From: Kiritimatiellota bacterium
Lineage (GTDB): Bacteria; Verrucomicrobiota; Kiritimatiellia; JAAZAB01
Reading direction: 5' to 3'
Assembly: GCA_008636095.1 (NCBI GenBank)
Contig: VSJD01000022.1
Coordinates: 1 to 15,005 of the forward strand
DNA: 15,005 nt
In this document: positions 3,507 to 15,005 of the stretch, one piece after another
Layout: each line of letters starts with the position of its first letter
Position numbering within the stretch: position 1 is the first letter of the stretch
Position numbers and translations under genes: made by a program
Notes under the pieces: model-generated
What the model saw: the letters and a program-made list of their open reading frames with translations, nothing else
Database searches by the model: none
What the model was told of the DNA's origin: nothing

Positions 3507-3509
3507 AAG

Positions 3510-3628
3510 AAATGGTTGATGGCAGATGGTATATGGCTGATTGATCCTAAGTTTACAACTTCTCACCTTTGGCGGGTTATTTTCCTGTCGGGATAAAGTC
3601 ATCAACCATTGACCATTAACCATTTTAT
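3510..3628. repeat. Spacer element: paired inverted 7-base-period arrays
   Basis: The left array at 3512-3546 reads as five successive heptamers: ATGGTTG, ATGGCAG, ATGGTAT, ATGGCTG, ATTGATC. The right edge (3600-3626) carries the same kind of array in reverse orientation; its complement reads ATGGTTA, ATGGTCA, ATGGTTG. AATGGTTGATG (3511-3521) and CATCAACCATT (3600-3610) are an exact 11-base inverted pair. The spacer between the ankyrin and PHP genes could therefore fold back on itself. No T-tract terminator is visible. Confidence 0.75.
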
Positions 3629-3633
3629 CGCCG

Positions 3634-4482
3634 ATGCTTGCCGATTACCATATTCATACGGAGCTCTGCCAACACGCCGAAGGTAAAGTCTCCGCATTTC
3701 GCGCGCGGGCCGTTGATCTGGGTCTGCCGGAAATTTGTTTCACCGATCATGTGCCCAACCCGGATGGCTACGATCCGGTCAATCGCATGCGTCTCGACCA
3801 GTTTTCACTATATCGGACAATGGTTGCGGACTTGGCACGCACAAGCCAACCGGTGGTCCTGTTTGGCGTCGAAGCCGATTATTACGACGGTTGTGAACGC
3901 TTTCTCCAGGATTGGCTCCCGCGCCAGGAGTTCGACCTGGTACTCGGCTCAGTGCATTACATCAATAATTGGGGATTCGATAATCCCGACGAACGGCACG
4001 TGTGGGATTCCGTGGATGTAACGAATACCTGGCGGACCTATTTTGACCTCATCGGCAAGCTGGCTGACATCCGATTGACTGACAGGCAATTGCCTGACAG
4101 CCGATTGGCTGACCGCCGATTGGCTGATGTGGTTGGACACCTGGACCTGCCCAAAAAATTTGGACACCGGCCCTCCGACCTGGATTTGAGGGAAATGGCT
4201 CAGCCCGCCCTGGACCGCGTGGCCGCCGCCGGCATGGCCATCGAAATCAATTCCTCCGGCCTGCGCCGCCAGGTCCATGAAATCTACCCCTCCGCCCTGC
4301 TCCTGTCGCTGGCGAAGGAAAGGGATATTCCAATCTGTTTCGGCTCCGATGCGCATCGGCCGGAGGAAGTGGGCTGGCAGTTCGACGCCTCGCTGGCACT
4401 GGCCCGCTCGGTTGGCTACACCCACGCCGTGCAATACCGTCGCCGCCAGCCCCTGTCCTACGCATTGCCGACGGGGGTGTAA
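3634..4482 (+). CDS. hisJ: PHP-family histidinol-phosphatase (HisJ/HisK type)
   Basis: Metal-dependent phosphatase of the PHP superfamily, expected to dephosphorylate L-histidinol phosphate in histidine biosynthesis. The protein has 282 residues, close to the family norm. Metal-site motifs are all visible: DYHIHTELCQHAEG (residues 4-17), CFTDHVPNP (35-43), GVEADYY (78-84), GSVHYI (105-110), VVGHLDLPKKFG (166-177), EINSSGL (204-210) and CFGSDAHRPEEVG (235-247). Residues 142-166 are an odd run of five LxDxx pentapeptides encoded by a 15-base tandem repeat, probably an insertion just before the conserved GHLD motif. The ATG at 3634 places the first metal motif at residue 4, as in relatives, but no clear ribosome binding site precedes it. 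No other his genes are adjacent. Histidinol-phosphatase is the best call; another PHP phosphoesterase is possible. Confidence 0.87.
   Translation: MLADYHIHTELCQHAEGKVSAFRARAVDLGLPEICFTDHVPNPDGYDPVNRMRLDQFSLYRTMVADLARTSQPVVLFGVEADYYDGCERFLQDWLPRQEFDLVLGSVHYINNWGFDNPDERHVWDSVDVTNTWRTYFDLIGKLADIRLTDRQLPDSRLADRRLADVVGHLDLPKKFGHRPSDLDLREMAQPALDRVAAAGMAIEINSSGLRRQVHEIYPSALLLSLAKERDIPICFGSDAHRPEEVGWQFDASLALARSVGYTHAVQYRRRQPLSYALPTGV
4060..4134 (+). repeat. Intragenic 15-base tandem repeat in the PHP gene
   Basis: Five imperfect 15-base units, each with a core close to TTGGCTGAC, encode LADIR, LTDRQ, LPDSR, LADRR and LADVV. The period is exactly five codons, so the reading frame is kept. It resembles the spacer arrays in character but has a frame-compatible period. 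Confidence 0.85.
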
Positions 4483-4516
4483 GACAAATTCTTTGGTGAT
4501 AACTGGGCAATGTTCT

Positions 4517-4543
4517 GTTGGCAGGGCAGATGCGCCTGCCAAC
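4517..4543. terminator. Strong stem-loop after the PHP gene
   Basis: GTTGGCAGG (4517-4525) pairs perfectly with CCTGCCAAC (4535-4543), and an inner GCA/TGC could extend the stem. It lies about 35 bases past the stop of the PHP gene. No T-tract follows, so it may be a processing or protective hairpin rather than an intrinsic terminator. Confidence 0.4.
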
Positions 4544-4720
4544 CAGTCGCGATATTATCCCCGCCTGTGCTTTTTGACACGATTGGGTCGCAGACATAGC
4601 CCACGTTAGTGTCTACATCCTCAATATGTATGCTTTTTGCGGAGAAGACGAGCGAGTTAAACGTTGCCTTGGCCTCTTCCTTCCTATAACGGAGAAGATT
4701 GGGTGGCATGTAAACGCAGG

Positions 4721-4877
4721 GCGAATTTCGCTTCCCGCGCAAGCGGGATTTGAAAAGCGAGGCAAGTTTGGCTCAGATGCACCGGCGGCGCGCGAAGCGC
4801 CATACTCGTGTATGCGCAAGTGCGGCAACGGCGCAGATGAACCAAAATCGCCGCAGCCTTTTTCAAACGAAATTCGC
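4721..4877. repeat. 157-base imperfect palindrome, MITE- or REP-like, between convergent genes
   Basis: Nested inverted pairs share almost the same centre near 4807: GCGAATTTCG (4721-4730) with CGAAATTCGC (4868-4877), exact; TTTGAAAA (4749-4756) with TTTTCAAA (4860-4867), exact; TTTGGCTCA (4767-4775) with TGAACCAAA (4838-4846), one mismatch; CATAC (4801-4805) with GTATG (4810-4814), exact, around a TCGT loop. The left arm also contains an independent 6-base-pair hairpin with a GCAA loop (4733-4748) that the right arm lacks. Weakly open frames cross the element, but none starts or ends in a gene-like way. The rest of the 4483-4932 spacer shows only the 4517 hairpin and the 4906 terminator. Confidence 0.75.
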
Positions 4878-4905
4878 GCTGCTATTCACGATGACAGGCA
4901 ACAAG

Positions 4906-4932
4906 AAAAAATTGGCTGCGGCACAAGCCGCA
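4906..4932 (-). terminator. Rho-independent terminator of the M23 peptidase gene
   Basis: Read on the minus strand, the stem TGCGGC pairs with GCCGCA around a TTGT loop, and the 3' side is followed by AGCCAATTTTTTC. The stem abuts the TAA stop codon of the minus-strand peptidase gene (4933-4935). The six-T run and its position directly after the stop make this convincing, although the stem is short. Confidence 0.7.
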
Positions 4933-6102
4933 TTAGTAATACATCAGCATGTCACGCCACTTTTCGCCTTCACGACCCAGGCGCCACAGGCCTTTCCGAT
5001 AAATGACCAGGTGACAACCGTTGCGACCGAGCGCATCCGGATCCACGCGCAGAATCGCGCTCTTATGCGCTCCCAGTAGCTGGCGTTCAGATTCCGTGGC
5101 ATTACGCCCCTTGATTGGCAAACCATCCTCCGCGACCGCCAGTTGAAGGCCGGCCCCCCGATAGGGCGCGCCTTCCCAGAGGCACGGGTAGCGATTAAAA
5201 TAATCCGGTTTGCGCCGCGCTGACAGCACGATTTCGAAGGCCGCCGGCAAAGTGGCCATGTATTGAAAAACATCAAAGTCCGGGCACTGGCGCTGGCGCT
5301 CAAACACCGCCAGGGGATCCACGCCCAGCAGGTTCCACCCGTTGAAATTGCCGTGATCGTTTTTTAATTTATGCGTACGGAACCACTGGTTGACCCGCGC
5401 GTTCAGGATCAGCCCGACTTCGAAATGGAGGTGCGCCTGGATCAGGGGGATCGGCGGATTGGCCGTGTTGCCGATGATCCCCAGCACGTCCCCCGCTTTT
5501 ACGCATTGTCCCCGGATCACGCTGGGCGAGAGGGCCGCCAGATGCGCGTAGAGCGTATAGACCATCCCGGAAGGACAAGCATGGGTAAGCACCACATATT
5601 TGCCGTAATTCGAATTCCCGGCTTTCGTATTGACATAGGCCACGGCCCCGTCCGCCACGGCATACACGGCATCTTGTGGACGGCCGGCGGCATCCCGTTG
5701 GCCGGCGGCGATATCCACCCCCTCATGAAAGGACGCCGCCAGGCCTTTGCCATAACTGGCAGTGCGCACTGAGCCGAACAGCGCGGATTCGGGCCGGCCG
5801 GAGGCCGTCGGCTGAAATACGTCGGGGTCATTACGGTCAAGCACCTGGTCAGTGGGAAACACGAGATACCGGAACGGGTTGATCGCCGGCCGGCCAATGA
5901 GTGGCAGGTCCAAGCCCGGCGTTTCCGATTCTGCGTCCGGCGGGCCCGGTTGCTTTGCCCGGAAGCACAGATACAAAACCAATCCCACGAAGACAAGTTC
6001 GAAGATCACAAGCAGGGCTATGGCTCCATACCGACGGCTATTATCTCCTAACTTCATGAGGGGAGAGATAATATGTGGAATCAAACGAGACGCAAGCACC
6101 AT
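4933..6102 (-). CDS. Membrane-anchored M23 (LytM-like) metallopeptidase
   Basis: Predicted zinc endopeptidase of family M23, which cuts peptidoglycan cross-links or stem peptides. A signal-anchor helix (residues about 25-47) places it at the inner membrane facing the periplasm. The LytM site is complete: HEGVD (His126, Asp130), YAHL (His187) and HLHFEV (His224, His226), with typical flanks VYAVADGAVAYV, YGKYVVLTH and VKAGDVLGIIGNT. Residues about 255-389 form a C-terminal region I do not recognise. The whole open frame is 389 residues. The alternative start Met16 (base 6057) gives MKLGDNSRRYG before the helix and looks more natural, but neither start has a clear ribosome binding site. The gene is convergent with the PHP gene, divergent from the polyamine genes, and ends at its own terminator. 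Because all five site residues are kept, an active peptidase is more likely than a LytM activator such as EnvC or NlpD. Confidence 0.88.
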   Translation of the reverse strand: MVLASRLIPHIISPLMKLGDNSRRYGAIALLVIFELVFVGLVLYLCFRAKQPGPPDAESETPGLDLPLIGRPAINPFRYLVFPTDQVLDRNDPDVFQPTASGRPESALFGSVRTASYGKGLAASFHEGVDIAAGQRDAAGRPQDAVYAVADGAVAYVNTKAGNSNYGKYVVLTHACPSGMVYTLYAHLAALSPSVIRGQCVKAGDVLGIIGNTANPPIPLIQAHLHFEVGLILNARVNQWFRTHKLKNDHGNFNGWNLLGVDPLAVFERQRQCPDFDVFQYMATLPAAFEIVLSARRKPDYFNRYPCLWEGAPYRGAGLQLAVAEDGLPIKGRNATESERQLLGAHKSAILRVDPDALGRNGCHLVIYRKGLWRLGREGEKWRDMLMYY

Positions 6103-6122
6103 GAGTACGCCAAAAAAATAAC

Positions 6123-6150
6123 TTGCCGTGGTGCGCCGCGCGTGTATAAA
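6123..6150 (+). promoter_or_regulatory. Possible promoter for the arginine decarboxylase gene
   Basis: TTGCCG (6123-6128) and TATAAA (6145-6150) are spaced 16 bases apart in the divergent intergenic region. Transcription would begin near 6157, giving a leader of about 130 bases that contains the inverted heptamer arrays at 6167-6237. The match to sigma70 is moderate (4/6 and 5/6). Confidence 0.35.
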
Positions 6151-6166
6151 GAATGATGTAACAAGG

Positions 6167-6237
6167 AGTCAGAATTCAGAATGAGGAAAACCATGCCAGG
6201 AGCCAGAATTCGGAATTCTATCTTCTATCTTCTGACT
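6167..6237. repeat. Inverted 7-base-period arrays in the speA leader
   Basis: The left array reads AGTCAGA, ATTCAGA, ATGAGGA (6167-6187). The complement of the right array (6201-6237) reads AGTCAGA, AGATAGA, AGATAGA, ATTCCGA, ATTCTGG. AGTCAGAA (6167-6174) and TTCTGACT (6230-6237) are an exact inverted pair at the outer edges. The architecture matches the other spacers, with a different heptamer word. Confidence 0.7.
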
Positions 6238-6284
6238 ACTTGTGAGCGGTCGGGACGGCACGGGGCGCCTTGCAAGGGGACGGC

Positions 6285-8204
6285 ATGAAAGCTGAAGTGC
6301 TTGAGCGATGGAACTGCGACAACGCGGCAGACTTGTACGGCATCCGGAATTGGGGTAGCGGCTATTTTGATATCGCCGCAAGCGGCGACATTGTGGTTAA
6401 ACCGTTCGGACCGGCCAGCGAGACGAGTATCAGCGTCATGGACCTCATTGCCGGGCTTAAGGCACGCGGACTCAACATGCCGATCCTGTTGCGCTTTGCT
6501 GATATCCTTTCATCACGCATCAAGCAGTTGTATGAACACTTCAATACGGCCATTCGCGATTACGGTTACCAGGGCGTGTACCGCGGCGTGTATCCGATCA
6601 AAGTCAACCAGCAGAAGCAGGTCGTGGCCGAGATCATGGAATTCGGCCGTCCCTATCATCACGGGCTGGAAGCCGGGAGCAAGGCGGAACTGATGGCCGC
6701 CATTGCCTATACCGAAGACCCCGAAGCGCTCATCGTCTGCAACGGCTACAAGGACGAGGAATTCATTGACCTGGCACTGTACGCGCTCAAGATGGGCGTC
6801 CAAACAATCCTCGTCCTGGAAAAGCCGGACGAACTGGCCATGATCCTGAACCGGGCCGCCCAGATGGGCGTCAAGCCCCGGCTTGGCGTGCGGGTTAAGC
6901 TTTCCAGCCGCGCCGGCGGTCACTGGGATGGATCCGGCGGGGACCGTAGCATGTTTGGCGTCAACGCCACGCAGGCGATTGAGATCATTGATCTCCTGCG
7001 CAAGGAAACCATGCTGGATTGCCTGCAGATGTTGCACTACCACCTGGGTTCGCAGGTTTCCAATATCCGCAATATCCGTTCGGCCCTGCGCGAGGCTTGC
7101 CGCCTTTACGTGGAAATGGCGCGTGAAGGCGCCGCCATGGGGCTGATCAACATCGGCGGGGGCCTGGCGGTGGATTATGATGGCTCGCACACGAATTTCG
7201 CCAGCAGTCGCAATTACACCGAACAGGAATATGCCGCCGACGTCGTGGAAGCCATCATGAGCGCCGTCAAGGAAGCTGGCATTCCCCACCCCACGATTGT
7301 CAGCGAATCGGGCCGCGCCACGGTCGCCCACCATTCCGTGCTGGTCTTCAACGTGCTCGATGTGAGCCGGTTCGAACCGCCGACCACGGCCACGGCCGAA
7401 GAAGTGCCGGCGCATTACCACGAAATGCTGAACAACCTGAAAGACGTCCGCCAGGCACTCTCCACGAAAAACCCCCAGGAGTGCTATCACGATGCCGTGT
7501 ATTACCGCGACGAAATCCGTTCGCTCTTCACGCATGGCCAACTGAGCCTGCGGGAGCGGGCGGTCGCGGAAACCTTGTTCTGGGATATCATTTGCCGAAT
7601 CGCCGCCGAAACCAAGGAACGCAAATATGTGCCCGAAGAACTGCAGGGCCTGGAAGTGGCGCTGGCTGATCTTTACTACTGCAATTTCAGCGTATTCCAG
7701 TCGCTTCCCGATTCCTGGGCAATTGACCAACTATTCCCCATTATGCCGATTCACCGCCTTAATGAAATGCCAACGCGCCAGGCCATCCTAGCCGACATTA
7801 CCTGCGACTCCGACGGCAAGATTGACCGTTTCATTGACCTGCATGACGTAAAGAACACCCTCCCCCTGCACGAACTGCACGGCGAAGATTATTACCTCGG
7901 CGCGTTCCTGGTGGGCGCCTACCAGGAAACCCTGGGCGACCTGCACAACCTGCTCGGTGACACGAATGTGTTACACGTCCGCGTCGGCAAGGACGGCACG
8001 GTGGAATATGCCAACGAAATCGCGGGCGACACCGTCGCCGACGTGCTCTCCTATGTGGAGTACGACCCCCGCGACATGATTAATCGCGTGCGAATCATGG
8101 CCGAACAGGCCGTGCGCGATAATCACATCACGGCCGTGGAACGCCGCGAAATCATGTCCGCCTACGAGACCGGCATGCGTGGGTACACCTATTTTGAAAG
8201 CTGA
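6285..8204 (+). CDS. speA: Biosynthetic arginine decarboxylase
   Basis: PLP-dependent, alanine-racemase-fold decarboxylase that converts L-arginine to agmatine, the first step of the ADC route to putrescine. It has 639 residues from the ATG at 6285, close to bacterial SpeA. That start is preferred over an in-frame TTG at 6270 because AAGGGGA (6274-6280) lies just upstream and MKAEVLERWNCDNAADLYGIRNWG matches a normal SpeA N-terminus. Visible motifs are YPIKVNQQKQ with PLP lysine Lys106, HYHLGSQ (251-257), the phosphate-binding INIGGG (288-293), SESGRATVAHH (340-350) and the second-substrate-site segment CDSDGKID (507-514). No defects are seen. The downstream gene is agmatinase on the same strand, so the pair supplies putrescine from arginine. 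Function is very secure. Confidence 0.97.
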   Translation: MKAEVLERWNCDNAADLYGIRNWGSGYFDIAASGDIVVKPFGPASETSISVMDLIAGLKARGLNMPILLRFADILSSRIKQLYEHFNTAIRDYGYQGVYRGVYPIKVNQQKQVVAEIMEFGRPYHHGLEAGSKAELMAAIAYTEDPEALIVCNGYKDEEFIDLALYALKMGVQTILVLEKPDELAMILNRAAQMGVKPRLGVRVKLSSRAGGHWDGSGGDRSMFGVNATQAIEIIDLLRKETMLDCLQMLHYHLGSQVSNIRNIRSALREACRLYVEMAREGAAMGLINIGGGLAVDYDGSHTNFASSRNYTEQEYAADVVEAIMSAVKEAGIPHPTIVSESGRATVAHHSVLVFNVLDVSRFEPPTTATAEEVPAHYHEMLNNLKDVRQALSTKNPQECYHDAVYYRDEIRSLFTHGQLSLRERAVAETLFWDIICRIAAETKERKYVPEELQGLEVALADLYYCNFSVFQSLPDSWAIDQLFPIMPIHRLNEMPTRQAILADITCDSDGKIDRFIDLHDVKNTLPLHELHGEDYYLGAFLVGAYQETLGDLHNLLGDTNVLHVRVGKDGTVEYANEIAGDTVADVLSYVEYDPRDMINRVRIMAEQAVRDNHITAVERREIMSAYETGMRGYTYFES

Positions 8205-8205
8205 C

Positions 8206-8457
8206 CCGAATTTCCGATTTGCGATTGCCGATTTTCGACTGAAAAGGAATGCCGGATTCACATAATCCATAGAATCAATTGAACTCAAACCAATCAAAAT
8301 TACAAAATCGGAAACCAGGCTCCGCCGACCCGGCTTCGCCGACGTATCCTGCCAAAGCGGACTCGCGAAGGGGGAAGCGCTTCCTCCGTCGCCAAGGCTG
8401 TGGTGGACAAGTCGCCCAGGCGAGTCGGCAATCGAAAATAGAAAATAGAAAATTACT
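8206..8457. repeat. Composite repeat spacer: heptamer arrays around a GC-rich palindromic element
   Basis: Directly after the speA stop, 8206-8240 is five heptamers: CCGAATT, TCCGATT, TGCGATT, GCCGATT, TTCGACT. Arrays in the opposite orientation follow at 8291-8311 (CAATCAA, AATTACA, AAATCGG) and 8423-8457 (AGTCGGC, AATCGAA, AATAGAA, AATAGAA, AATTACT). Between the last two lies a GC-rich block (about 8316-8422) containing a 28-base near-palindrome (8365-8392) whose core GGAAGCGCTTCC (8373-8384) is perfect. This looks like an element inserted within a heptamer array. It overlaps the possible N-terminal extension of the next gene. Confidence 0.75.
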
Positions 8458-9409
8458 TCATTTCCTGGAATACAATCCCGTTTACGTCCACAACCCACGT
8501 GCGCCTTACGCCGTCCTGCCGGTGCCGTATGAGCGCACGGTCAGTTTTGGCCGAGGCACGGCGCGCGCGCCAGCGGCCATTCTCGCGGCCAGTGTGCATA
8601 TAGAGCCTTTTGACGAGGAACTGTTCCAGCCCCTGGGCTTGGGCGTTCAGACCCTGCCGGCCGTTGACTGCCGACGCGGCACCGATCGACAGGTCCTTGA
8701 GGTCATCCGACGCGCCGCCGCGGTCGTCATGCAACGGGGACAGTTTCTGCTGACTCTGGGCGGCGAACACACCATCTCTTTTCCCCTCGTGGCAGCGGCT
8801 AAGGCCATGCATGGCGACCTGACGGTACTGCATTTCGATGCCCATCTAGACTTGCGCGATCGTTACACACAAACGCCCCTCTCGCACGGTTGCGTCATAC
8901 GGCGGGTTATGGAGCTGGGAGTGCCCATTGTGTCGGTCGGTATCCGCAGTGTCTGCGCCGAGGAATATCATCTTGTTAAACAGCATCGCTTGCCTGTATT
9001 TTGGGCGCGCGATATCGTTCAAGCTCGGTCCGAGGCCTGGATGAAGGCCGTGCTCGCGCGCCTGGGAAAACGAGTGTATATTTCGATTGATGTTGACTGC
9101 CTGGACCCTTCACTGATGCCCGGAACCGGCACACCAGAGCCGGGCGGCCTGGGTTGGTACGCCCTCTCCGGGCTCCTGCGGCGCGTATGCGCCGCACGCC
9201 AGGTGGTGGCGGCCGATTTGGTGGAAGTGGCGCCCGTGCCCGGTACACCGGCCTGTGAATATATCGCCGCACGGCTTGCGACCAAGCTGATGCTGTATCA
9301 CCGGGTGGGGATGGGATACGCCGGAGGCAAACATCCATCCAACCACGCGGAACGCGTGGCAAACGTTGAATTTATCCCGCGTTGCGCGGGACGCCCAACG
9401 CCGAATTAA
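8279..9409 (+). CDS. speB: Agmatinase (ureohydrolase)
   Basis: Binuclear manganese ureohydrolase that cleaves agmatine to putrescine and urea. The metal ligands are all present: GGEH (His164), FDAHLD (Asp187, His189, Asp191) and SIDVDCLDP (Asp271, Asp273), followed by PGTGTPEPGGL, the agmatinase-like form of the motif. Recognisable family sequence begins at FLEYNP (residue 62), leading to YAVLPVPYERT. Residues 1-60 are encoded by the repeat spacer, and the only standard start codon ahead of FLEYNP is TTG at 8279. Either the repeats are translated as an extension or translation begins at a non-standard codon such as CTG at 8465. The last 16 residues also come from a hairpin-rich segment. It follows speA on the same strand and completes the ADC route. 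Agmatinase is favoured over arginase by motif and neighbour. Confidence 0.92.
   Translation: MNSNQSKLQNRKPGSADPASPTYPAKADSRRGKRFLRRQGCGGQVAQASRQSKIENRKLLHFLEYNPVYVHNPRAPYAVLPVPYERTVSFGRGTARAPAAILAASVHIEPFDEELFQPLGLGVQTLPAVDCRRGTDRQVLEVIRRAAAVVMQRGQFLLTLGGEHTISFPLVAAAKAMHGDLTVLHFDAHLDLRDRYTQTPLSHGCVIRRVMELGVPIVSVGIRSVCAEEYHLVKQHRLPVFWARDIVQARSEAWMKAVLARLGKRVYISIDVDCLDPSLMPGTGTPEPGGLGWYALSGLLRRVCAARQVVAADLVEVAPVPGTPACEYIAARLATKLMLYHRVGMGYAGGKHPSNHAERVANVEFIPRCAGRPTPN
9375..9391 (+). repeat. Perfect hairpin in the last codons of the agmatinase gene
   Basis: TCCCGCG-TTG-CGCGGGA is a perfect 7-base-pair stem, with further pairing possible between CGTTG upstream and CAACG downstream. It closely resembles the TCCCGC-GCAA-GCGGGA hairpin at 4733-4748. 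No T-tract follows, so it may be a dispersed hairpin repeat that also protects or ends the transcript. Confidence 0.55.
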
Positions 9410-9500
9410 TAAATAGGAACAAGACATATTTTAATGCCGCCATATCAATGCAAAGCATAGAGTGGCCAGCTTGGCAACGGGAAACGTCAATGAGGAACCC

Positions 9501-11189
9501 ATGATATTGAACTTTCGATGTTCGATGTTTGCTTCCTGCCGGATGGCGCTCTTTGGCATGTTTATAATGACCCTGCTCACGGGCTGTGCCCCGGTACTGC
9601 GGGACGCCGGTGGTGTTCGGATCTTGGGCAATATCAAGGAAGACGACAAGGAACGCCACATCAAGATCACCACCCGCGACCAGCAATGCATCCTCAAGAT
9701 TGCCCGCACCGATCCCGACGCCGAGGTGCGCGCTGAAGCCGTCCGCCTCGTAAGTGCGCCCGCTGACCTGGTCGCCATCGCCAATACAGACCCCGACCGG
9801 AAGGTTCGTGTGGTTGCCGCTTCCCGGTTACGGGGCAAGGACACGCTCCTGCGCCTAATCGCCACCAATACGGAGCCCCTGGCGCGCCTGGCCGCCCTGG
9901 AGTTGATCCGGGATCAGCCCACGCTGTTCAACATTGCCATGGCCAACAGCGACCCCATGATCCGTAAAGCGGCCTTGGAACGGATTACCAAGAATGATCT
10001 GCTTTTTTCAATTGCCATGACCAATTCGGATTCGTTTGTACGCATTTCCGCCGCCAGTCGGGTCACCGATCAGAAACGGCTGATCACGATCGCGCGGACG
10101 AATTCCGATCCGCTTGTACGCCGCTCCGCCATGCGCGACATTACCAGCCAGACGGTATTGACCGAAATTGTCACCAAGGATCCGGACCGCGATATCCGCA
10201 AAACCGCAGTCGCCCTGATCACGCGCGCAGATGTGCTCGAACTGTTGGCTGTCGGCAACACCGACCCCGTTATCCGCTACCTGGCCGTGCGCAAGGTGAA
10301 TAATCCCGGCATCCTCCAGCGCATTGCCGTCACCGATCCCGATGCACTGGTCCGGAAAACAGTGGTGGAGCAGATTTTGGACGAAGCCCTGCTGACTTCC
10401 ATCGCCGAGTTCGATCCGGATGCCACAGTAAGAGCCATGGCCATCAAGCGGTTAAAAGGGCCTGCCCTGGTCATGGTGCTGGAGAGTGACCCCTCTCCCG
10501 TTGTACGCCTGGCGGCCATCCAAAACGTCACCAATGCTGAAGTCCTGAAAGAAGCGGTCCTGACCGACGACGACCCAGGCGTACGTCAAGCCGCGGCAAC
10601 CCGTATTAACAACCGCCTGCTGATCGCGGCCGTGGCTCAGCAGGATACGAATGTCATCGTTCGTCTGGCAGCCATTGCCCGGCTTACGGACCAAGCCGTC
10701 CTGGAAACCATTGTCCGGAATGACGTCCGCCAGGAGGCTCGCGCCGCCGCCGCCGCTAAAATGGTGAACCAGACAACGCTTAAGGACATCGCGTTGTTCG
10801 ACTCGCATCGCTCGGTCCGCCAGGCGGCCGTCGAACGCATTACGAATCAGGCAATCCTGGAGGAACTCGCGCGCAGTGCCAATCCCAATGTCCGTCTGCT
10901 GGCCGTAGCCAAGCTGACCAACCAGCAGATTTTGAACGATATCGCCCGCAACGATCCGTTCCCGGCCGTGCGCAAGGCCGCGCTGGACCTGGTGGACACA
11001 CCAGCCACGATTAAACTGATCGCTCGTGAAGACAGCGACCCATCGGTCCGCAAAGCGGCGATCCAGAAGCTGATGGATACCGAAACGCTCGAAGCCATCG
11101 CCGCGTCCGATCCGGACCGGGATGTCAGCGGCGAAGCACGCGCGCGCCTGCAAGCCTTTAAAACCAAGTCCACCCTTACCAAGCCCTAA
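9501..11189 (+). CDS. HEAT/LRV-repeat lipoprotein
   Basis: Predicted outer- or inner-membrane lipoprotein of 562 residues from the ATG at 9501. That start is chosen for GAGGAA at 9492-9497; a GTG at 9462 and ATGs at 9525 and 9543 are alternatives. The signal peptide ends in the lipobox LLTGC, with the lipidated cysteine at residue 29. The rest is about 19 tandem repeats of 25-27 residues with a consensus like xxLxxIAxxDPDxxVRxAAVxxIT, resembling HEAT or leucine-rich-repeat-variant (LRV) helices. Such superhelices bind other proteins. No catalytic motif is seen. The first codons are a heptamer-period array (9503-9530). A tandem FabZ gene follows 77 bases downstream, so an envelope role in a shared operon is possible but only inferred. 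Confidence 0.87.
   Translation: MILNFRCSMFASCRMALFGMFIMTLLTGCAPVLRDAGGVRILGNIKEDDKERHIKITTRDQQCILKIARTDPDAEVRAEAVRLVSAPADLVAIANTDPDRKVRVVAASRLRGKDTLLRLIATNTEPLARLAALELIRDQPTLFNIAMANSDPMIRKAALERITKNDLLFSIAMTNSDSFVRISAASRVTDQKRLITIARTNSDPLVRRSAMRDITSQTVLTEIVTKDPDRDIRKTAVALITRADVLELLAVGNTDPVIRYLAVRKVNNPGILQRIAVTDPDALVRKTVVEQILDEALLTSIAEFDPDATVRAMAIKRLKGPALVMVLESDPSPVVRLAAIQNVTNAEVLKEAVLTDDDPGVRQAAATRINNRLLIAAVAQQDTNVIVRLAAIARLTDQAVLETIVRNDVRQEARAAAAAKMVNQTTLKDIALFDSHRSVRQAAVERITNQAILEELARSANPNVRLLAVAKLTNQQILNDIARNDPFPAVRKAALDLVDTPATIKLIAREDSDPSVRKAAIQKLMDTETLEAIAASDPDRDVSGEARARLQAFKTKSTLTKP
9503..9530 (+). repeat. Heptamer-period array in the signal-peptide codons
   Basis: Four successive heptamers, GATATTG, AACTTTC, GATGTTC and GATGTTT, lie at the 5' end of the HEAT lipoprotein gene. 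Their form and position at a gene edge match the spacer arrays, so the annotated N-terminus may be partly repeat-derived. Confidence 0.6.
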
Positions 11190-11266
11190 TCCGACCAAGG
11201 CCGCTGGTGAGTATATGGCGAGCCGAACACTGAATACCTGAGTAGTTACAATATAAAGAACAGCTT

Positions 11267-12253
11267 ATGAATACAGACCCTGCTGCGTTGACCGGGACTG
11301 CTGCAACAGAGATCATCATAGATTACGACCGGTTGCAGTCGCTCCTGCCGCACCGGCCACCCCTGCTGATGCTCGACCGCGTCCGGCTGATTCCCGCCGA
11401 AAAGCGCGCGATCGGGCTCAAAAACGTGACGATCAACGAGCCCCATTTTCAGGGCCACTTTCCCGGCAATCCCGTTTTGCCGGGTGTGCTGATCCTGGAA
11501 GCCATGGTTCAGACCGGCGGCGCCGCCATTCGCAAGTTTCTGGATATTCAGAACGACGTCGCGTTCCTGCGCACGCTGGGCAACATCAAGTTCCGCAAGC
11601 CCGTTTTGCCGGGCGACCGCCTGATAACGGATGTCACCCTGGAGCGTTTTCGCAAAGGCATCGTTAAATTTCACGCGACCGCCACGGTGCGTGACCAGCA
11701 GGTCTGCCAAGCCAAGTTCACCGTGGGATTAAGCGCCAACGTGCCCGAACACATCCCGGACACCGAATTGGCTCAGCCCCTGATCATGGACAACACCCCC
11801 ATACAGACCGCGCCGATCAACAACATTAACGGGATCATGAATATCATTCCCCACCGCTACCCCTTCATTCTGGTGGATGCCATCTATTTCGAGGGCAAAA
11901 ACCGGATTGTTGCGCTTAAGAACGTTACGGGCAATGAGTCCTTTTTTAGCGGTCATTTTCCCAAACATCCAATCATGCCGGGCACGCTCCTGGTGGAGGC
12001 CATCGCCCAGACAGGCGCCGTGTTCATTCTCGGTAAGCCGGAAAACAAAGGCAAACTCGCCTATTTCATGGCCGTGGATATGGCCCGGTTCCGCCGGCCG
12101 GTCCGGCCAGGCGACCAACTCCTGATTGACGTCCTGCAGACGGCATCGCGCCCGCGCGTTGGTAAGGCGTATGGTCGGATTTTTGTGGGTCCTCACTTGG
12201 CGGCTGAAGCCCGTATTTCGTTCGTGCTCATGGACCGGGCATCCCTGGGGTGA
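11267..12253 (+). CDS. fabZ: Tandem FabZ: two fused (3R)-hydroxyacyl-ACP dehydratase domains
   Basis: A protein of 328 residues with two hot-dog-fold FabZ domains. Domain 1 (about 18-155) has LLPHRPPLLMLDRV, GHFPGNPVLPGVLILEAMVQ, and the catalytic pair His64 and Glu78. Domain 2 (about 186-322) has IIPHRYPFILVDAI, GHFPKHPIMPGTLLVEAIAQ, and His230 and Glu244. The His-to-Glu spacing is 14 in both, as in single-domain FabZ, so both sites look intact. FabZ dehydrates 3-hydroxyacyl-ACP in fatty acid synthesis and in supply of lipid A precursors. Ordinary FabZ is about 150 residues, so this is a fused duplication with a linker near 156-185. The domains differ considerably, suggesting an old duplication or different chain-length roles. 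No lpxA, lpxD or lpxC lies next to it. The start codon has only a weak purine stretch (AAAGAA) upstream. Confidence 0.93.
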   Translation: MNTDPAALTGTAATEIIIDYDRLQSLLPHRPPLLMLDRVRLIPAEKRAIGLKNVTINEPHFQGHFPGNPVLPGVLILEAMVQTGGAAIRKFLDIQNDVAFLRTLGNIKFRKPVLPGDRLITDVTLERFRKGIVKFHATATVRDQQVCQAKFTVGLSANVPEHIPDTELAQPLIMDNTPIQTAPINNINGIMNIIPHRYPFILVDAIYFEGKNRIVALKNVTGNESFFSGHFPKHPIMPGTLLVEAIAQTGAVFILGKPENKGKLAYFMAVDMARFRRPVRPGDQLLIDVLQTASRPRVGKAYGRIFVGPHLAAEARISFVLMDRASLG

Positions 12254-12285
12254 AAAGTAAATTAGGCCTTCGGCAACTATTTCAT

Positions 12286-12346
12286 GTAGCCGCGGCGGTG
12301 ACGCCGTGGCCGCCGGAGGAATCCACACCGTCACCGGCGCGGCTAC
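12286..12346. repeat. REP-like inverted repeat upstream of the LolA-like gene
   Basis: The 18-base arm at 12286-12303 (starting GTAGCCGCG) matches the complement of 12329-12346 at 17 of 18 positions, with a 25-base loop. It sits between fabZ and the LolA-like gene, just before the chosen start. It could be a mobile hairpin element or a regulatory stem-loop. No transposase is present in the window. Confidence 0.75.
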
Positions 12347-12362
12347 AAAGATTCAAATTCCT

Positions 12363-13208
12363 ATGAACACGAATAAACACGGATATGCGCAGAGCTTGCT
12401 TTGCATGGCACTCCTCGCGGCCGGCGCGATTCAAGGCACCGGCGCGACAAATGCGCCCGCCGCGGCAGTGCCTGTGGCCTTCACGCGGGCCGCCGACGTG
12501 CTGGAACGGGTACGCGCCAATCTGCCCAATGAGGCCATCAAGATCCGGGGCGAATTGCTGTGCGGCGCGCGGCGCGGCAAACTGGACCGCGCGTTTTATC
12601 TGGACGCTAATCTCAAGTTGGGCCAATCTCCAGCCACGGCCTGCTATACCCTGCTCGATGGATTCGGCGCCGCAGTGGAGCAGTTGGCGATTGTCCGCCA
12701 GCCAAATGGCGTGTGGCGCCGGGACTACGCCAAGGGCCAGCCGCTCCAGGTCGCGCCGGCACCGGCAGGCGACAGCCTCATCGGCGGTAGCGACGTGAAC
12801 TGGAACGATCTCAGCCTGGCCTTTCTCTGGTGGACGGATGGTGTCATTACGGGTCGCGAACTCTTTCTGGAGCGCGAGTGCCTGGTGTTGGAATTCATGC
12901 CGCCGCAGGCACCGCGGCTGACCCGCGTCTGGATTGATGAAGCTCGGCTCGTGCTGATCAAGGTTGAGGAATATGATGCCCAGCGGGTTCTTCAACGGCT
13001 CATCAAAACTCGCACAATCAAAAAAATCGGCGACAACTGGATGATCACGGATTTGGATATCCGCCGCTGGCCGGGTGAACACCGGACTTTGATTAAACTG
13101 AATGAAGTATCTGCCGAAGCGGCAGAAATCAGAGATCAGAGGTCAGAGGTCAGCGATCAGAAAGCAAATATTGTCAGCAATCAAACCGACAAGCAAATAG
13201 CCCCATAG
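12363..13208 (+). CDS. LolA-like exported outer-membrane lipoprotein-sorting family protein
   Basis: Predicted periplasmic protein of 281 residues from the ATG at 12363. The N-terminus (MNTNKHGYAQSLLCMALLAAG) is a signal peptide, probably cut near residue 28. The body resembles the LolA-like outer-membrane lipoprotein-sorting family: GSDVNWNDLSLAFLWW (142-157), a strand-rich core, TRVWIDEARLVLIKVEEYD (187-205) and ITDLDIRRWPGEHRTLIKL (228-246). That assignment rests on pattern memory, so it is moderate. Such proteins bind lipids or acylated proteins in an open half-barrel. A GTG at 12306 in frame would begin inside the inverted repeat and is rejected. Residues 255-281 are the translation of the heptamer array at 13127-13161 plus spacer sequence, so the natural C-terminus probably lay near residue 252. 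No strong ribosome binding site is seen. Confidence 0.78.
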   Translation: MNTNKHGYAQSLLCMALLAAGAIQGTGATNAPAAAVPVAFTRAADVLERVRANLPNEAIKIRGELLCGARRGKLDRAFYLDANLKLGQSPATACYTLLDGFGAAVEQLAIVRQPNGVWRRDYAKGQPLQVAPAPAGDSLIGGSDVNWNDLSLAFLWWTDGVITGRELFLERECLVLEFMPPQAPRLTRVWIDEARLVLIKVEEYDAQRVLQRLIKTRTIKKIGDNWMITDLDIRRWPGEHRTLIKLNEVSAEAAEIRDQRSEVSDQKANIVSNQTDKQIAP

Positions 13209-13290
13209 CCCCAAGTCCGCATTCTGACATCAGTTTTCTGACCGCTAATCTCTGACATCTGATTTCTGACCTCTGATCTCTGACCTCTCT
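13127..13290. repeat. Paired inverted heptamer arrays between convergent genes
   Basis: The left array (13127-13161) reads AATCAGA, GATCAGA, GGTCAGA, GGTCAGC, GATCAGA. The right array (13221-13290) is ten heptamers in the opposite orientation, including TTTCTGA, TCTCTGA, CATCTGA, CCTCTGA and CCTCTCT. This is the longest and cleanest of the 7-base-period sets. The left array lies inside the 3' end of the LolA-like gene, and the right one abuts the pyruvate kinase stop. The pair could fold as a bidirectional terminator-like stem between convergent transcripts. Confidence 0.85.
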
Positions 13291-13295
13291 CCACC

Positions 13296-14681
13296 TCACT
13301 TCCCCAAGTCGTGGATTTTCATAATATAATCGGCCCCGCGCAGTTTGGTGGAACCGCTGATTATCACTACCGTATCACCCGCTTTCAGCGACCCTGACTT
13401 CAGCAGGACCGTTTCCAGAACGCCGAAAAATTCCGCCGAATGACCCCGCCACGGAACCGCCACGGGCGTGACGCCCCATACCAGGGCCAGACAACTACGG
13501 GTATGCTCGTCGGGCACAGCCGCAATCAACGGCACGCGCGGCCGGCGCTGGGCCACCATCTGCGCCGTGTAACCTGACACGGTAATGGCAACGATAGCGG
13601 CGGCATGTAACTCCTCGGCGGCTTCCACCGCGGCCGCCGCCAGGGCGTGCACGCGTGTTTTGCCGCGATAGGCTTCCCGACGCGGATTGGCCGCTTGTTC
13701 GGCTTCCGTAATAATTTCGCGCATCATGCGCACGGTTTCGACCGGGTATTTCCCGACAGCCGTCTCGCCGGAGAGCATTACGGTATCCGTGCCATCCCAT
13801 ACGGCATTGGCCACGTCAGAGGCCTCCGCACGCGTCGGCCGCGGATTATGGATCATGGACTCCAGCATCTGGGTCGCCGTAATGATCGTCTTGCCCTCGG
13901 CATTGGCGCGGCTGATGAATTGTTTCTGCAGAACCGGCACGCGCGCGGGTGGCATCTCCACGCCCAGATCACCGCGCGCCACCATAATCCCGTCGGCGAT
14001 TGCCAAGATTTCCTCGAAGCGTTCCACGGCAGCGGGTTTTTCAATCTTGGCAATCAGCTGCGGGCAGGGGCCGGTTGCCAAGGCCGCCCGGCGGGCCGTC
14101 TGCAGATCGTCGGCACGCTGGACAAACGATAGCGACACATAATCAACCTGCGCCTTGACCGCCGCGGCTAGATCTACCAGATCTTTTTCGGTCACAGCCG
14201 GCAAACGCAGGTCGGTATCCGGCAAATTGATGCCCTTGCCCTGCAGAAGCAGTCCACCCACCTTGACGCGCACCTGGAACCCGTCGCCGACGGCGCCAAG
14301 GCCTTCCAACTCCAGGTTGCCGTCATCAAGGAGAATGCGCTGGCCGGGCCGGATATCCGCCAGAATCTCGGGATGGGACACGGGCAGGTCCCGTCCCAGA
14401 ATCAGCACCGCCTTTTCCGCCAGTGTCAGCCGACCGTCCGGCAACGGGCCCACCCTGAGTTTCGGACCGCCCAAATCCACCACCACGGCCACGGGTGCGC
14501 CTTCCGCAGTAGCGGCGGAACGCGCCGCGCGCACCCAGCCATCCAGCTCCGCGGCATGCATATGGCTCATATTGATACGGAACCCATCCACCCCCTCCCG
14601 GATCAGGGTTCGCATCATATCCGGGGTTGCGGAAGCCGTGCCGAGGGTCGCCAGAATCTTGGTTTCACGTCGAGATAACAT
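13296..14681 (-). CDS. pyk: Pyruvate kinase
   Basis: Glycolytic enzyme that transfers phosphate from phosphoenolpyruvate to ADP, giving pyruvate and ATP. It has 461 residues, the usual bacterial length without an extra C-terminal PEP-utiliser domain. Key features are FRINMSH (Arg35, Asn37, Ser39, His40), IAKIEKP with catalytic Lys212 and metal ligand Glu214, MVARGDLGVE with Asp238, TATQMLESM with Thr270, and the signature PTRAEASDVANAVWDGTDTVMLSGETAVGKYPVE. The GGPKLRVG segment carries Lys74 where potassium-dependent enzymes have Glu, so potassium-independent activity is predicted. The ATG is preceded by GAAAGGAA, with the AGGA core 7 bases upstream. The gene is transcribed alone on this strand and converges with the LolA-like gene. 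Allosteric control cannot be read with confidence. Confidence 0.97.
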   Translation of the reverse strand: MLSRRETKILATLGTASATPDMMRTLIREGVDGFRINMSHMHAAELDGWVRAARSAATAEGAPVAVVVDLGGPKLRVGPLPDGRLTLAEKAVLILGRDLPVSHPEILADIRPGQRILLDDGNLELEGLGAVGDGFQVRVKVGGLLLQGKGINLPDTDLRLPAVTEKDLVDLAAAVKAQVDYVSLSFVQRADDLQTARRAALATGPCPQLIAKIEKPAAVERFEEILAIADGIMVARGDLGVEMPPARVPVLQKQFISRANAEGKTIITATQMLESMIHNPRPTRAEASDVANAVWDGTDTVMLSGETAVGKYPVETVRMMREIITEAEQAANPRREAYRGKTRVHALAAAAVEAAEELHAAAIVAITVSGYTAQMVAQRRPRVPLIAAVPDEHTRSCLALVWGVTPVAVPWRGHSAEFFGVLETVLLKSGSLKAGDTVVIISGSTKLRGADYIMKIHDLGK

Positions 14682-15005
14682 GGGGATTTCCTTTCTTTAG
14701 GACCTATTAAAGAATAAGAGGGACTATTGGCGAAGGCCCGCCCAAAAGCGGGGACCGCAACAACAGAATATTTTCCGCCAGAGGCGGATCTGCCCATGGC
14801 ATGAAACCGCAAAGAACGCAGAGAACGCAAAATCGAAATGTTGTGTTGACACATGCCCGTGTTCCATGTTCTCTGCGATCTTTGTGCTCTTCCATGAGAA
14901 GGCTTGTCAAGAAGCGACTGACGTGGCAGGCGCTGGGCTCCGATCCTGAGGCATGTTATGCTTCCATTCGCACTCTATAATGGGTCATTAATTCAGACCC
15001 GGTGC
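14682..15005. other. Non-coding tail with a 9-base-period inverted repeat
   Basis: The 324 bases upstream of pyruvate kinase hold no convincing gene. They contain an array with period 9 (CGCAAAGAA, CGCAGAGAA, CGCAAAATC at 14808-14834) and an inverted counterpart near 14865-14890. CGCAGAGAAC (14817-14826) and GTTCTCTGCG (14868-14877) pair exactly. A TATAAT at 14976-14981 on the plus strand has no good -35 partner. Short minus-strand open frames here are repeat translations. I see no clear promoter for pyruvate kinase, though one should lie here. Confidence 0.55.

Follow-up and report, generated by a model that had tools for sequence, protein, structure and literature searches.

Paired heptamer arrays in intergenic spacers of a Kiritimatiellota genome: probable gene-less copies of hairpin elements with four-helix-bundle genes

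Heptamers repeated in tandem are known from cyanobacteria, where the short tandemly repeated repetitive (STRR) sequences are degenerate, intergenic, and in exact register. Eukaryotic foldback transposons have inverted ends made of short tandem repeats. In ribosomal RNA (rRNA), the stem of one intervening sequence (IVS) contains tandem GACAGAT heptamers upstream of an open reading frame (ORF) for an S23p protein, and the number of heptamers varies among strains; the IVS is reported to be excised by RNase III, the structure of S23p is a pentamer of four-helix bundles, and the protein is argued to be probably not expressed at that IVS (PMC4990558). The present analysis concerns four spacers, S1 to S4, in a stretch of 15,005 bases (the window), which is contig C197 of a Kiritimatiellota bacterium with a genome of 3.8 Mb in 357 contigs (G000). 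Each spacer contains an array of degenerate heptamers and an inverted copy of its word, the left arm of S2 being short. Paired tandem arrays bracket many genes of the four-helix-bundle (FHB) family, that is S23p or 23S rRNA intervening-sequence protein (IVP; PF05635), in several phyla. The family is related to bAvd, which belongs to diversity-generating retroelements. Because paired arrays bracket so many FHB genes across phyla, the four spacers are best read as gene-less copies: they probably hold copies of FHB hairpin elements that form the intergenic counterpart of the S23p-bearing rRNA IVS. The FHB hairpin element itself is best read as a barely described selfish element.

The likeness to the rRNA IVS consists in the inverted-repeat stem, the S23p-family ORF in the loop, and the variable tandem heptamers adjoining the ORF, as described in PMC4990558. 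In contrast, the copies in the window are intergenic and gene-less, and their genome uses many words. They sit between protein genes, no rRNA gene helix hosts them, and no PF05635 match of G000 falls on C197, leaving the window copies without an S23p/IVP ORF. The terminal inverted-repeat stem of the IVS has an equivalent in S1 (3507-3633), which folds into a single long stem with a z score of -5.35, and in a 149-nt part of S4 (13110-13258; z -6.22), whereas S2 folds weakly (z -1.66); the folds of S3 and of the complete S4 have no shuffled counterpart for comparison. The foldback potential of transcripts proposed in the initial annotation is thus clear for S1 and S4 and weak for S2. At one locus, L405, in a metagenome-assembled genome (MAG) titled Ruminiclostridium, an inverted TCAGAGG pair (1574-1750) sits in the first variable (V1) helix of a 16S rRNA gene. 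The Rfam alignment covers the gene up to the pair and resumes beyond it for the roughly 20 nt that remain of the locus. A further array is located just upstream of this 16S rRNA gene.

The arrays share with STRR sequences the degenerate tandem units, the exact register, and the intergenic position, in line with the resemblance to heptameric repeats that had been pointed out. They differ in their paired inverted arms, fixed polarity, and FHB link, and the host is not a cyanobacterium: the closest SpeA relatives in named genomes are from Kiritimatiellae, Lentisphaerae, and Verrucomicrobia MAGs. The inverted tandem-repeat ends are similar to those of foldback transposons, but the latter are eukaryotic DNA transposons and have no FHB protein. 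The TAACTGA repeats of Beggiatoaceae also form intergenic heptamer arrays, often just upstream of start codons and common to distant lineages, but their description gives a single word in direct, not inverted, arrangement and proposes translational regulation (PMC4679880). The GGGNATC heptamers of Xanthomonas and Nostoc are likewise abundant, intergenic, and near ORF ends; however, they are one G-rich quadruplex word, and the abstract mentions no inverted pairing (PMC4692102). A search of the open-access literature found no paper that presents flanking tandem heptamers as a regular companion of FHB genes, which is weak evidence of absence; only PMC4990558 has heptamers beside one S23p ORF.

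A scan of the window at lags of 4 to 12 bases found 96 windows with at least 18 matches in 28 positions at lag 7, one at lag 10, and none at any other lag. At a threshold of at least 17 of 28, the lag-7 regions are 3509-3548, 3590-3625, 6192-6251, 8203-8246, 8415-8464, 9504-9549, 13113-13174, and 13235-13302. They reach all four spacers, and 9504-9549 is an additional region; the scan does not flag the left arm of S2 by itself, owing to its shortness. The feature is real and unusual, and the initial annotation had observed it correctly as arrays in seven-base register with inverted counterparts in four spacers.

The rest of the genome was represented by 62 contigs of G000 chosen by number (724,663 bases, 557 called genes), with 20 other contigs, 18 of them picked for the TCTGACC word, excluded from the counts. 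Genes were called with a home-made codon-usage finder, and their edges may shift by some codons. At 18 of 28 matches, lag 7 gave 78 regions in this sample, 68 of which have an intergenic midpoint, compared with 55 (47 intergenic) at lag 14 and 19 (13 intergenic) at lag 8; at lags 6, 9, 12, and 15 the regions are mostly within genes. In a smaller sample, 10 of 113 spacers had arrays at 17 of 28, as opposed to 2 after one shuffle. The expectation that the lag-7 signal would exceed that of shuffled spacers was borne out, and the signal is also above that of other lags. Among spacers of at least 35 nt, arrays at 17 of 28 are present in 47 of 237 tandem, 11 of 51 convergent, and 4 of 64 divergent spacers (divergent versus the 58 of 288 others, p 0.006). 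Because divergent spacers rarely have arrays, a promoter function was rejected. The arrays hug gene ends, at a median distance of 10.5 nt versus 21.7 nt under random placement. The nearest gene edge is a stop codon for 40 arrays and a start codon for 23, whereas the background edges of spacers of at least 80 nt comprise 249 stops and 295 starts.

A TCAGAGG pair encloses a gene for a four-helix-bundle protein with a match to PF05635 and a weaker one to bAvd. The sequence matches in the Protein Data Bank (PDB) are 2rld and 2gsc. All three ORFs similar to the enclosed protein (E 1e-6) in the first loci searched lie between left and right TCAGAGG arms, on contigs that had all been chosen via the word. 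Later FHB genes were taken by protein similarity alone, and a locus was counted as passing when the score for inverted flanks was at least 12. Fourteen of 20 FHB loci in a first set of plasmids pass, as do six of eight in a second set, which was retrieved with a different FHB subfamily and judged by the same cut-off. None of 60 control coding sequences (CDS) passes, drawn from the 70 remaining CDS of 36-kb stretches on two of the plasmids, and neither do the genes of G000, with one exception in 480. The combined plasmid result is 20 of 28 versus 0 of 60 (p 1e-13). Twenty-three of the 28 plasmid loci are cyanobacterial, but among those that pass, Chloroflexota, Bacteroidota, and Pseudomonadota are represented as well. 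The words vary by locus and include GCAGGGGA, GGGAACA, GCAATTC, TAGTGAT, CACTGGT, GACGGAT, and others. Strong tandem periodicity was found in 55 of the 76 flanks of 38 FHB loci (28 on plasmids and 10 in the genus), versus 4 of 120 control flanks. The best lag of the 55 periodic flanks is 7 in 36, 8 in 14, and 9 in 5; arrays of period 8 or 9 stand at FHB genes in some cyanobacteria. Two cyanobacterial plasmid FHB genes are located amid cas genes, between cas2 and cas1 (L455, 592-948) and between cas6 and cas4 (L439, 804-1163).

The window's own genome has 12 PF05635 matches, ten of them above the family cut-off, with those on C62 and C295 below it. The flanks were scored by a strict measure, which uses 80 nt on either side, and by a widened one, which lets arms extend into coding ends. 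The widened score is at least 12 in eight of the ten loci above the family cut-off (C298, 25; C280, 25; C296, 18; C328, 22.5; C53, 20; C239 first, 21.5; C256, 25; C239 second, 30), compared with 2 of 478 own-gene controls (1 of 480 by the strict measure). Loci L445 to L451 were fetched by their FHB match, with flanks not known beforehand, and six of these seven reach 12 by the widened measure (p 1e-11 against 2 of 478 own genes). By the strict measure, L444 (C280), L448 (C53), L450 (C256), and L451 (C239 second) pass, and L048 (C298) is at 12. The words at these genes are TCAGAGG at L048 and L444, GACGACA at L445 (C296), GTGTTCG at L446 (C328), CGAAAAT at L448, ATGGTTG at L449 (C239 first), AACATCG with tip and cap at L450, AATCCGA on C236, and AAATTCC at L451. 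CGAAAAT is the word of S3 and ATGGTTG that of S1, and thus three of the four window-spacer words (S1, S3, and S4) each flank an FHB gene in G000.

Word and FHB subfamily co-occur across the phylum, with exceptions. The AACATCG word with its tip, searched as GCAAACRYCSAACRYCSAAC, is present in 8 of 387 genomes of a phylum sample, five of them outside the genus; the reversed control was found once, in one genome. The matching FHB subfamily (E<=1.1e-36) is encoded in six of these eight genomes and in 20 of the 379 others (p 1e-6), or in five of seven (p 1.5e-5) when G000, the source of the query, is omitted. For TCAGAGG, its own FHB at 60% identity was found in 5 of 11 genomes with at least five 12-mers versus 2 of 27 others (p 0.014; p 0.035 without G000). 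An order of arm, FHB gene, and inverted arm was derived from coordinates on C195 of G008, which belongs to another genus. The FHB of a TCAGAGG locus in an unclassified MAG (L400) is 57-63% identical to the TCAGAGG-word FHBs of G000.

A complete element would thus begin with a left arm of degenerate heptamers, continue with the FHB gene, and end with the array inverted. The FHB protein may act on its own arms, as DNA or RNA, with the effect that elements spread or arms are rewritten, and gene-less pairs would be non-autonomous derivatives that need FHB in trans. The stem in transcripts may be cut by RNase III, as in one rRNA IVS, which would make an insertion between cotranscribed genes nearly neutral and an insertion into promoters costly. 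The number of units could drift by slippage of 7 nt. We infer the mode of movement and the function of FHB in this scheme from sequence. A reverse transcriptase as an obligatory partner is not supported (one, one, one, two, and zero RVT_1 matches in G000 and in the same-genus genomes G001, G002, G003, and G004, respectively); it is not obviously required, because G004, which is 93% complete, has arrays and FHB with no RVT_1 match. Tentatively, the proposal can be widened: FHB (bAvd-like) proteins might define a class of selfish elements across phyla, each lineage being temporarily tied to its own heptamer word and possibly writing or copying it as inverted arms, and gene-less pairs would then explain many intergenic heptamer arrays of bacteria as well as the S23p-bearing rRNA IVS.

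A number of observations weigh against reading the spacers as gene-less FHB elements. For heptamer pairs, neither a target-site duplication nor a clean empty site was found, and in no case could the flanks be aligned on both sides. An inner partner went undetected for about half of the arms, and among 16 ATGGTTG-word loci of a virus collection there is no inverted pair within 400 nt, the sole neighbouring pair being two left arms. No FHB gene with the word of S2 was found. The plasmid sets cover 20 of 29 and 8 of 20 records with matches. Eight of the 28 plasmid loci are below the cut-off: L428, L439, and L457 (two cyanobacterial, one Spirochaetota) have direct arrays instead, and by eye L425 and L427 have an array upstream only and L434 has none. 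In G000, the widened measure was devised after arms had been seen entering coding ends. The strict measure passes only four of the eight loci L444 to L451; C296, C328, and the first locus of C239 fail, the latter two because an arm codes for the end of the protein. The arrays on both sides of the C280 gene were already known from coordinates. The FHB gene of C292 (L447) has no arrays (widened score 8.5), and for that of C236 (L047), where scoring either broke down or gave low values, the uncertain ORF start leaves a pairing seen by eye only. The FHB locus of G004 (L453) is weak, with scores of 11 (strict) and 13 (widened). The E-value and identity cut-offs of the co-occurrence tests were chosen after the lists had been seen, and the statistics ignore relatedness. 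G003 and G004 have 13 and 8 AACATCG arms without that FHB subfamily, and the TCAGAGG-type FHB is encoded in G021 and G031, where the 12-mer is absent. The TCAGAGG-word FHBs are equally near to cyanobacterial GCAGGGGA-word FHBs (47-53% identity) and to the GACGACA-word protein of L445 (47-49%). The FHB of Azospirillum (L440; GACGGAT/GACAGAG word) is most similar to cyanobacterial FHBs that have other words, not to that of L445, which speaks against a lasting bond between word and protein.

The pairing of the arms is frequent but not universal. Of 15 spacers with two arrays, 13 have a better inverted than direct match, and the left arrays fit the reverse complement of their own partner better than the partners from other loci (permutation p 0.0002). 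A same-word inner partner in inverted orientation was detected at p<=0.05 for 28 of 59 arms, as opposed to 17 of 59 for inner direct, 12 of 55 for outer inverted, and 14 of 55 for outer direct partners. Nine degenerate words gave 68 arms in the 62-contig sample, versus one with the units reversed (AAATTCC had no arm under the rule used). Fifty-one arms are placed with the left type at the left edge of the spacer or the right type at the right edge, nine break this rule, and four are inside genes; the left strand of each word was named after the data had been seen, and the counts thus measure consistency within a word. Orientation is accordingly non-random with respect to spacer side, as had been claimed. 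Neighbouring arms of the same family are arranged left-right (LR) in seven cases, RL in none, LL in one, and RR in one. In 42 virus-collection loci taken for the TCAGAGG word, the neighbours are LR in nine, RR in six, LL in two, and RL in one, with one stretch of DNA represented twice among the nine LR loci. Scans for FHB in viral sequences gave no match in virus contigs by a search limited to close relatives and none in annotated phages at E 1e-5.

The words recur within the genome and beyond it. The motif TCTGACCTCTGA has 94 overlapping matches in G000 (42 forward, 52 reverse), counted as 52 arrays on 36 contigs, versus none for the reversed control, and it is present in 15 of the 38 genomes searched, the own genome included. 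ATGGYNR has ten arms in the 62-contig sample. TCAGARR in triplicate was found in 3 of 40 further genomes, one of them a MAG titled Ruminiclostridium, with one occurrence of the reversed control in one genome. Among 13 AACATCG arms at dispersed loci, not selected by their tip, 12 have the outer tip GCAAAC and nine the inner cap CGAATG, and the arms found with GCAAACRYCSAACRYCSAAC at L262 and L264 have a clear inverted partner. The other families are less uniform: the tested cap is present in 4 of 22 GACGNC arms and the tip in 5 of 10 ATGGTT arms, and hence a conserved terminal sequence across copies holds for the AACATCG family only. A single transposon family with terminal inverted repeats was rejected, the tip GTAACTACTCAG being found at only six places in G000. 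The initial annotation held that each locus has a private word; this fails within the genome, because the words recur there and in relatives. Across bacteria, however, the word does change from one FHB locus to another. Heptamer arrays are split by G+C-rich palindromic repeats inserted within them at L259, L105, L169, and L385 (4770-4942).

Orthologous spacers were compared across the four same-genus genomes. Whole pairs are present or absent between relatives, and the number of units varies. At the position of S1, G004 has the same word in other units, and the array is absent from G001, whose spacer is 8 nt, from G002 (33 nt), and from G003, where 234 nt of different DNA lie instead. The word of S2 is shared with G004; in that position G003 has an ATGGTTA pair and G002 has different DNA. 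The S4 word forms longer arms in G002. Where L160 has a 149-nt pair (16327-16475), G004 has 15 nt, and L395 of G002 contains an ATGGTTG pair that L100 of G000 lacks. In 23 contigs of G002 (20 picked for array matches) compared with the own genome, 22 of 41 orthologous spacers have an array in at least one genome. There are ten exact AAGTCAG units in G000, five in G004, and none in G003, and the CACAGYC unit seems, by eye, to be expanded in G000 relative to G004. A separate miniature element in L325 of G002 (1297-1500; orthologous place L166 11094-11269) has the tips GTAACTACTCA/TGAGTAGATAC, a 7-base duplication GAATTTT, and arms of the CACGGAT type, and it is missing from G000 and G004.

It is conceivable, though unlikely, that FHB genes are passengers, with heptamer hairpins spreading by other means and FHB genes landing or persisting in their loops. 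The roughly 52 TCAGAGG-word arrays of G000 stand against two FHB loci with that word, loops and arms also accept other inserts such as the G+C-rich palindromes, AACATCG arms occur without the matching FHB in G003 and G004, and the FHB of Azospirillum does not group by word. However, word and FHB subfamily co-occur across the phylum sample, and across distant phyla the start and stop codons of FHB genes are adjoined by arrays whose word changes from case to case, a pattern not expected of a generic landing site. Generation in place, by 7-nt slippage and foldback template switching from one local seed and with no mobile element, had been favoured over a mobile family on account of the private words. 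The differences by whole heptamers in AAGTCAG, the apparent expansion of CACAGYC, and the existence of many words agree with it, but words, tips, and caps are shared among scattered loci and with other families, whole pairs come and go between orthologous spacers, the polarity of neighbouring arms is fixed in G000 and in the TCAGAGG loci of the virus collection, and the FHB link is not predicted. Local slippage as the sole cause was rejected on the recurrence of words, tips, and caps, and local generation as a whole is very improbable.

That the pairs are transcript-end or processing hairpins under selection by the host is suggested by the strong stems of S1 and S4, the excess of arrays at stop codons, and their scarcity in divergent spacers. 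A terminator does not need fixed words, though, and orthologous spacers often have no pair, as at S1 in G001 and G002 and at L160 16327 in G004, or have another word or kind of repeat, which makes this explanation highly doubtful. The polar inverted pairs and singletons recall REPINs, whose short palindromic REP units have a GTAG or CGTC tag, and the miniature element of G002 has tips and a 7-base duplication, as could be expected if the heptamers were end repeats of a conventional transposon or REPIN-type family mobilized by a transposase in trans. Yet the arms are, by inspection, tandem arrays and not short palindromes, and the gene between same-word arms is FHB wherever inspected, with no general search for transposases between arms made; a family of this kind is equally hard to credit. 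If the spacers are gene-less FHB elements, intergenic heptamer arrays and the rRNA IVS, hitherto separate puzzles each without a mechanism, would have in FHB a first candidate trans factor for both, which makes both questions testable. The pairs of protein and word would also provide a natural set for studies of sequence recognition, and some odd protein tails could be explained as translated array arms. The LolA-like ORF of the window (12306-13208) contains such a stretch, RSEVSDQ, near its end.

The arms and associated repeats of the window are listed in Table 1. Its ten main genes code for glycogen phosphorylase, an ankyrin protein, a PHP protein, an M23 peptidase, arginine decarboxylase, an arginase-family protein, a HEAT protein, a double FabA-like protein, a LolA-like protein, and pyruvate kinase.

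Table 1. Heptamer arms and associated repeats in the window (positions in bases from the first base of the window).
Feature	Position	Strand	Context
S1 left arm, word ATGGTTG, four units ATGGNNN	3512..3539	+	Directly 3' of the ankyrin-protein stop codon; found by lag scan
S1 right arm, inverted ATGGTTG word (CATCAACCATTGACCATTAACCATT)	3600..3624	-	9 nt upstream of the next ATG; pairs with the left arm in the fold
S2 left arm, word TCAGAATTCAGAAT, short	6167..6186	+	Word common to G004
S2 right arm (GAATTCTATCTTCTATCTTCTGAC)	6206..6236	-	Found by lag scan; weak fold
S3 left arm, word CGATTTG/CGATTTT	8210..8238	+	3' of the arginine decarboxylase stop
Dispersed G+C-rich repeat in the S3 loop	8315..8430	.	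Further copies in G000, G002, and G004
S3 right arm (GGCAATCGAAAATAGAAAATAGAAAATT)	8427..8454	-	Same word brackets the FHB gene in L448
S4 left arm, word TCAGAGG	13123..13161	+	Within the 3' end of the LolA-like ORF, codes EIRDQRSEVSDQ; longer in G002
S4 right arm, TCTGACC word	13223..13288	-	7 nt separate it from the stop codon of pyruvate kinase (13296); the FHB genes of L048 and L444 lie between arms of this word
Fifth, reduced array: AACATCG-family right arm with tip GTTTGCTT	9514..9534	-	Full inverted pair at the orthologous place in G002

The longest arginase ORF (8279-9409) begins within the S3 spacer. A period-9 array (CGCAAAGAA) and its inverted partner (14808-14831 and 14867-14891) have the layout of the heptamer pairs with a 9-base unit, and similar pairs are present in spacers of G003. 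The last bases of the window (14880-15005) form a contig-end repeat that is near-identical at several other contig ends of G000, which is possibly the reason why the assembly breaks there. The spacer between the PHP and M23 genes contains a dispersed repeat of about 330 bases (4605-4940), with many copies of approximately 71-90% identity in all five same-genus genomes. The PHP gene contains an in-frame tandem repeat with a 15-base unit (4061-4127).

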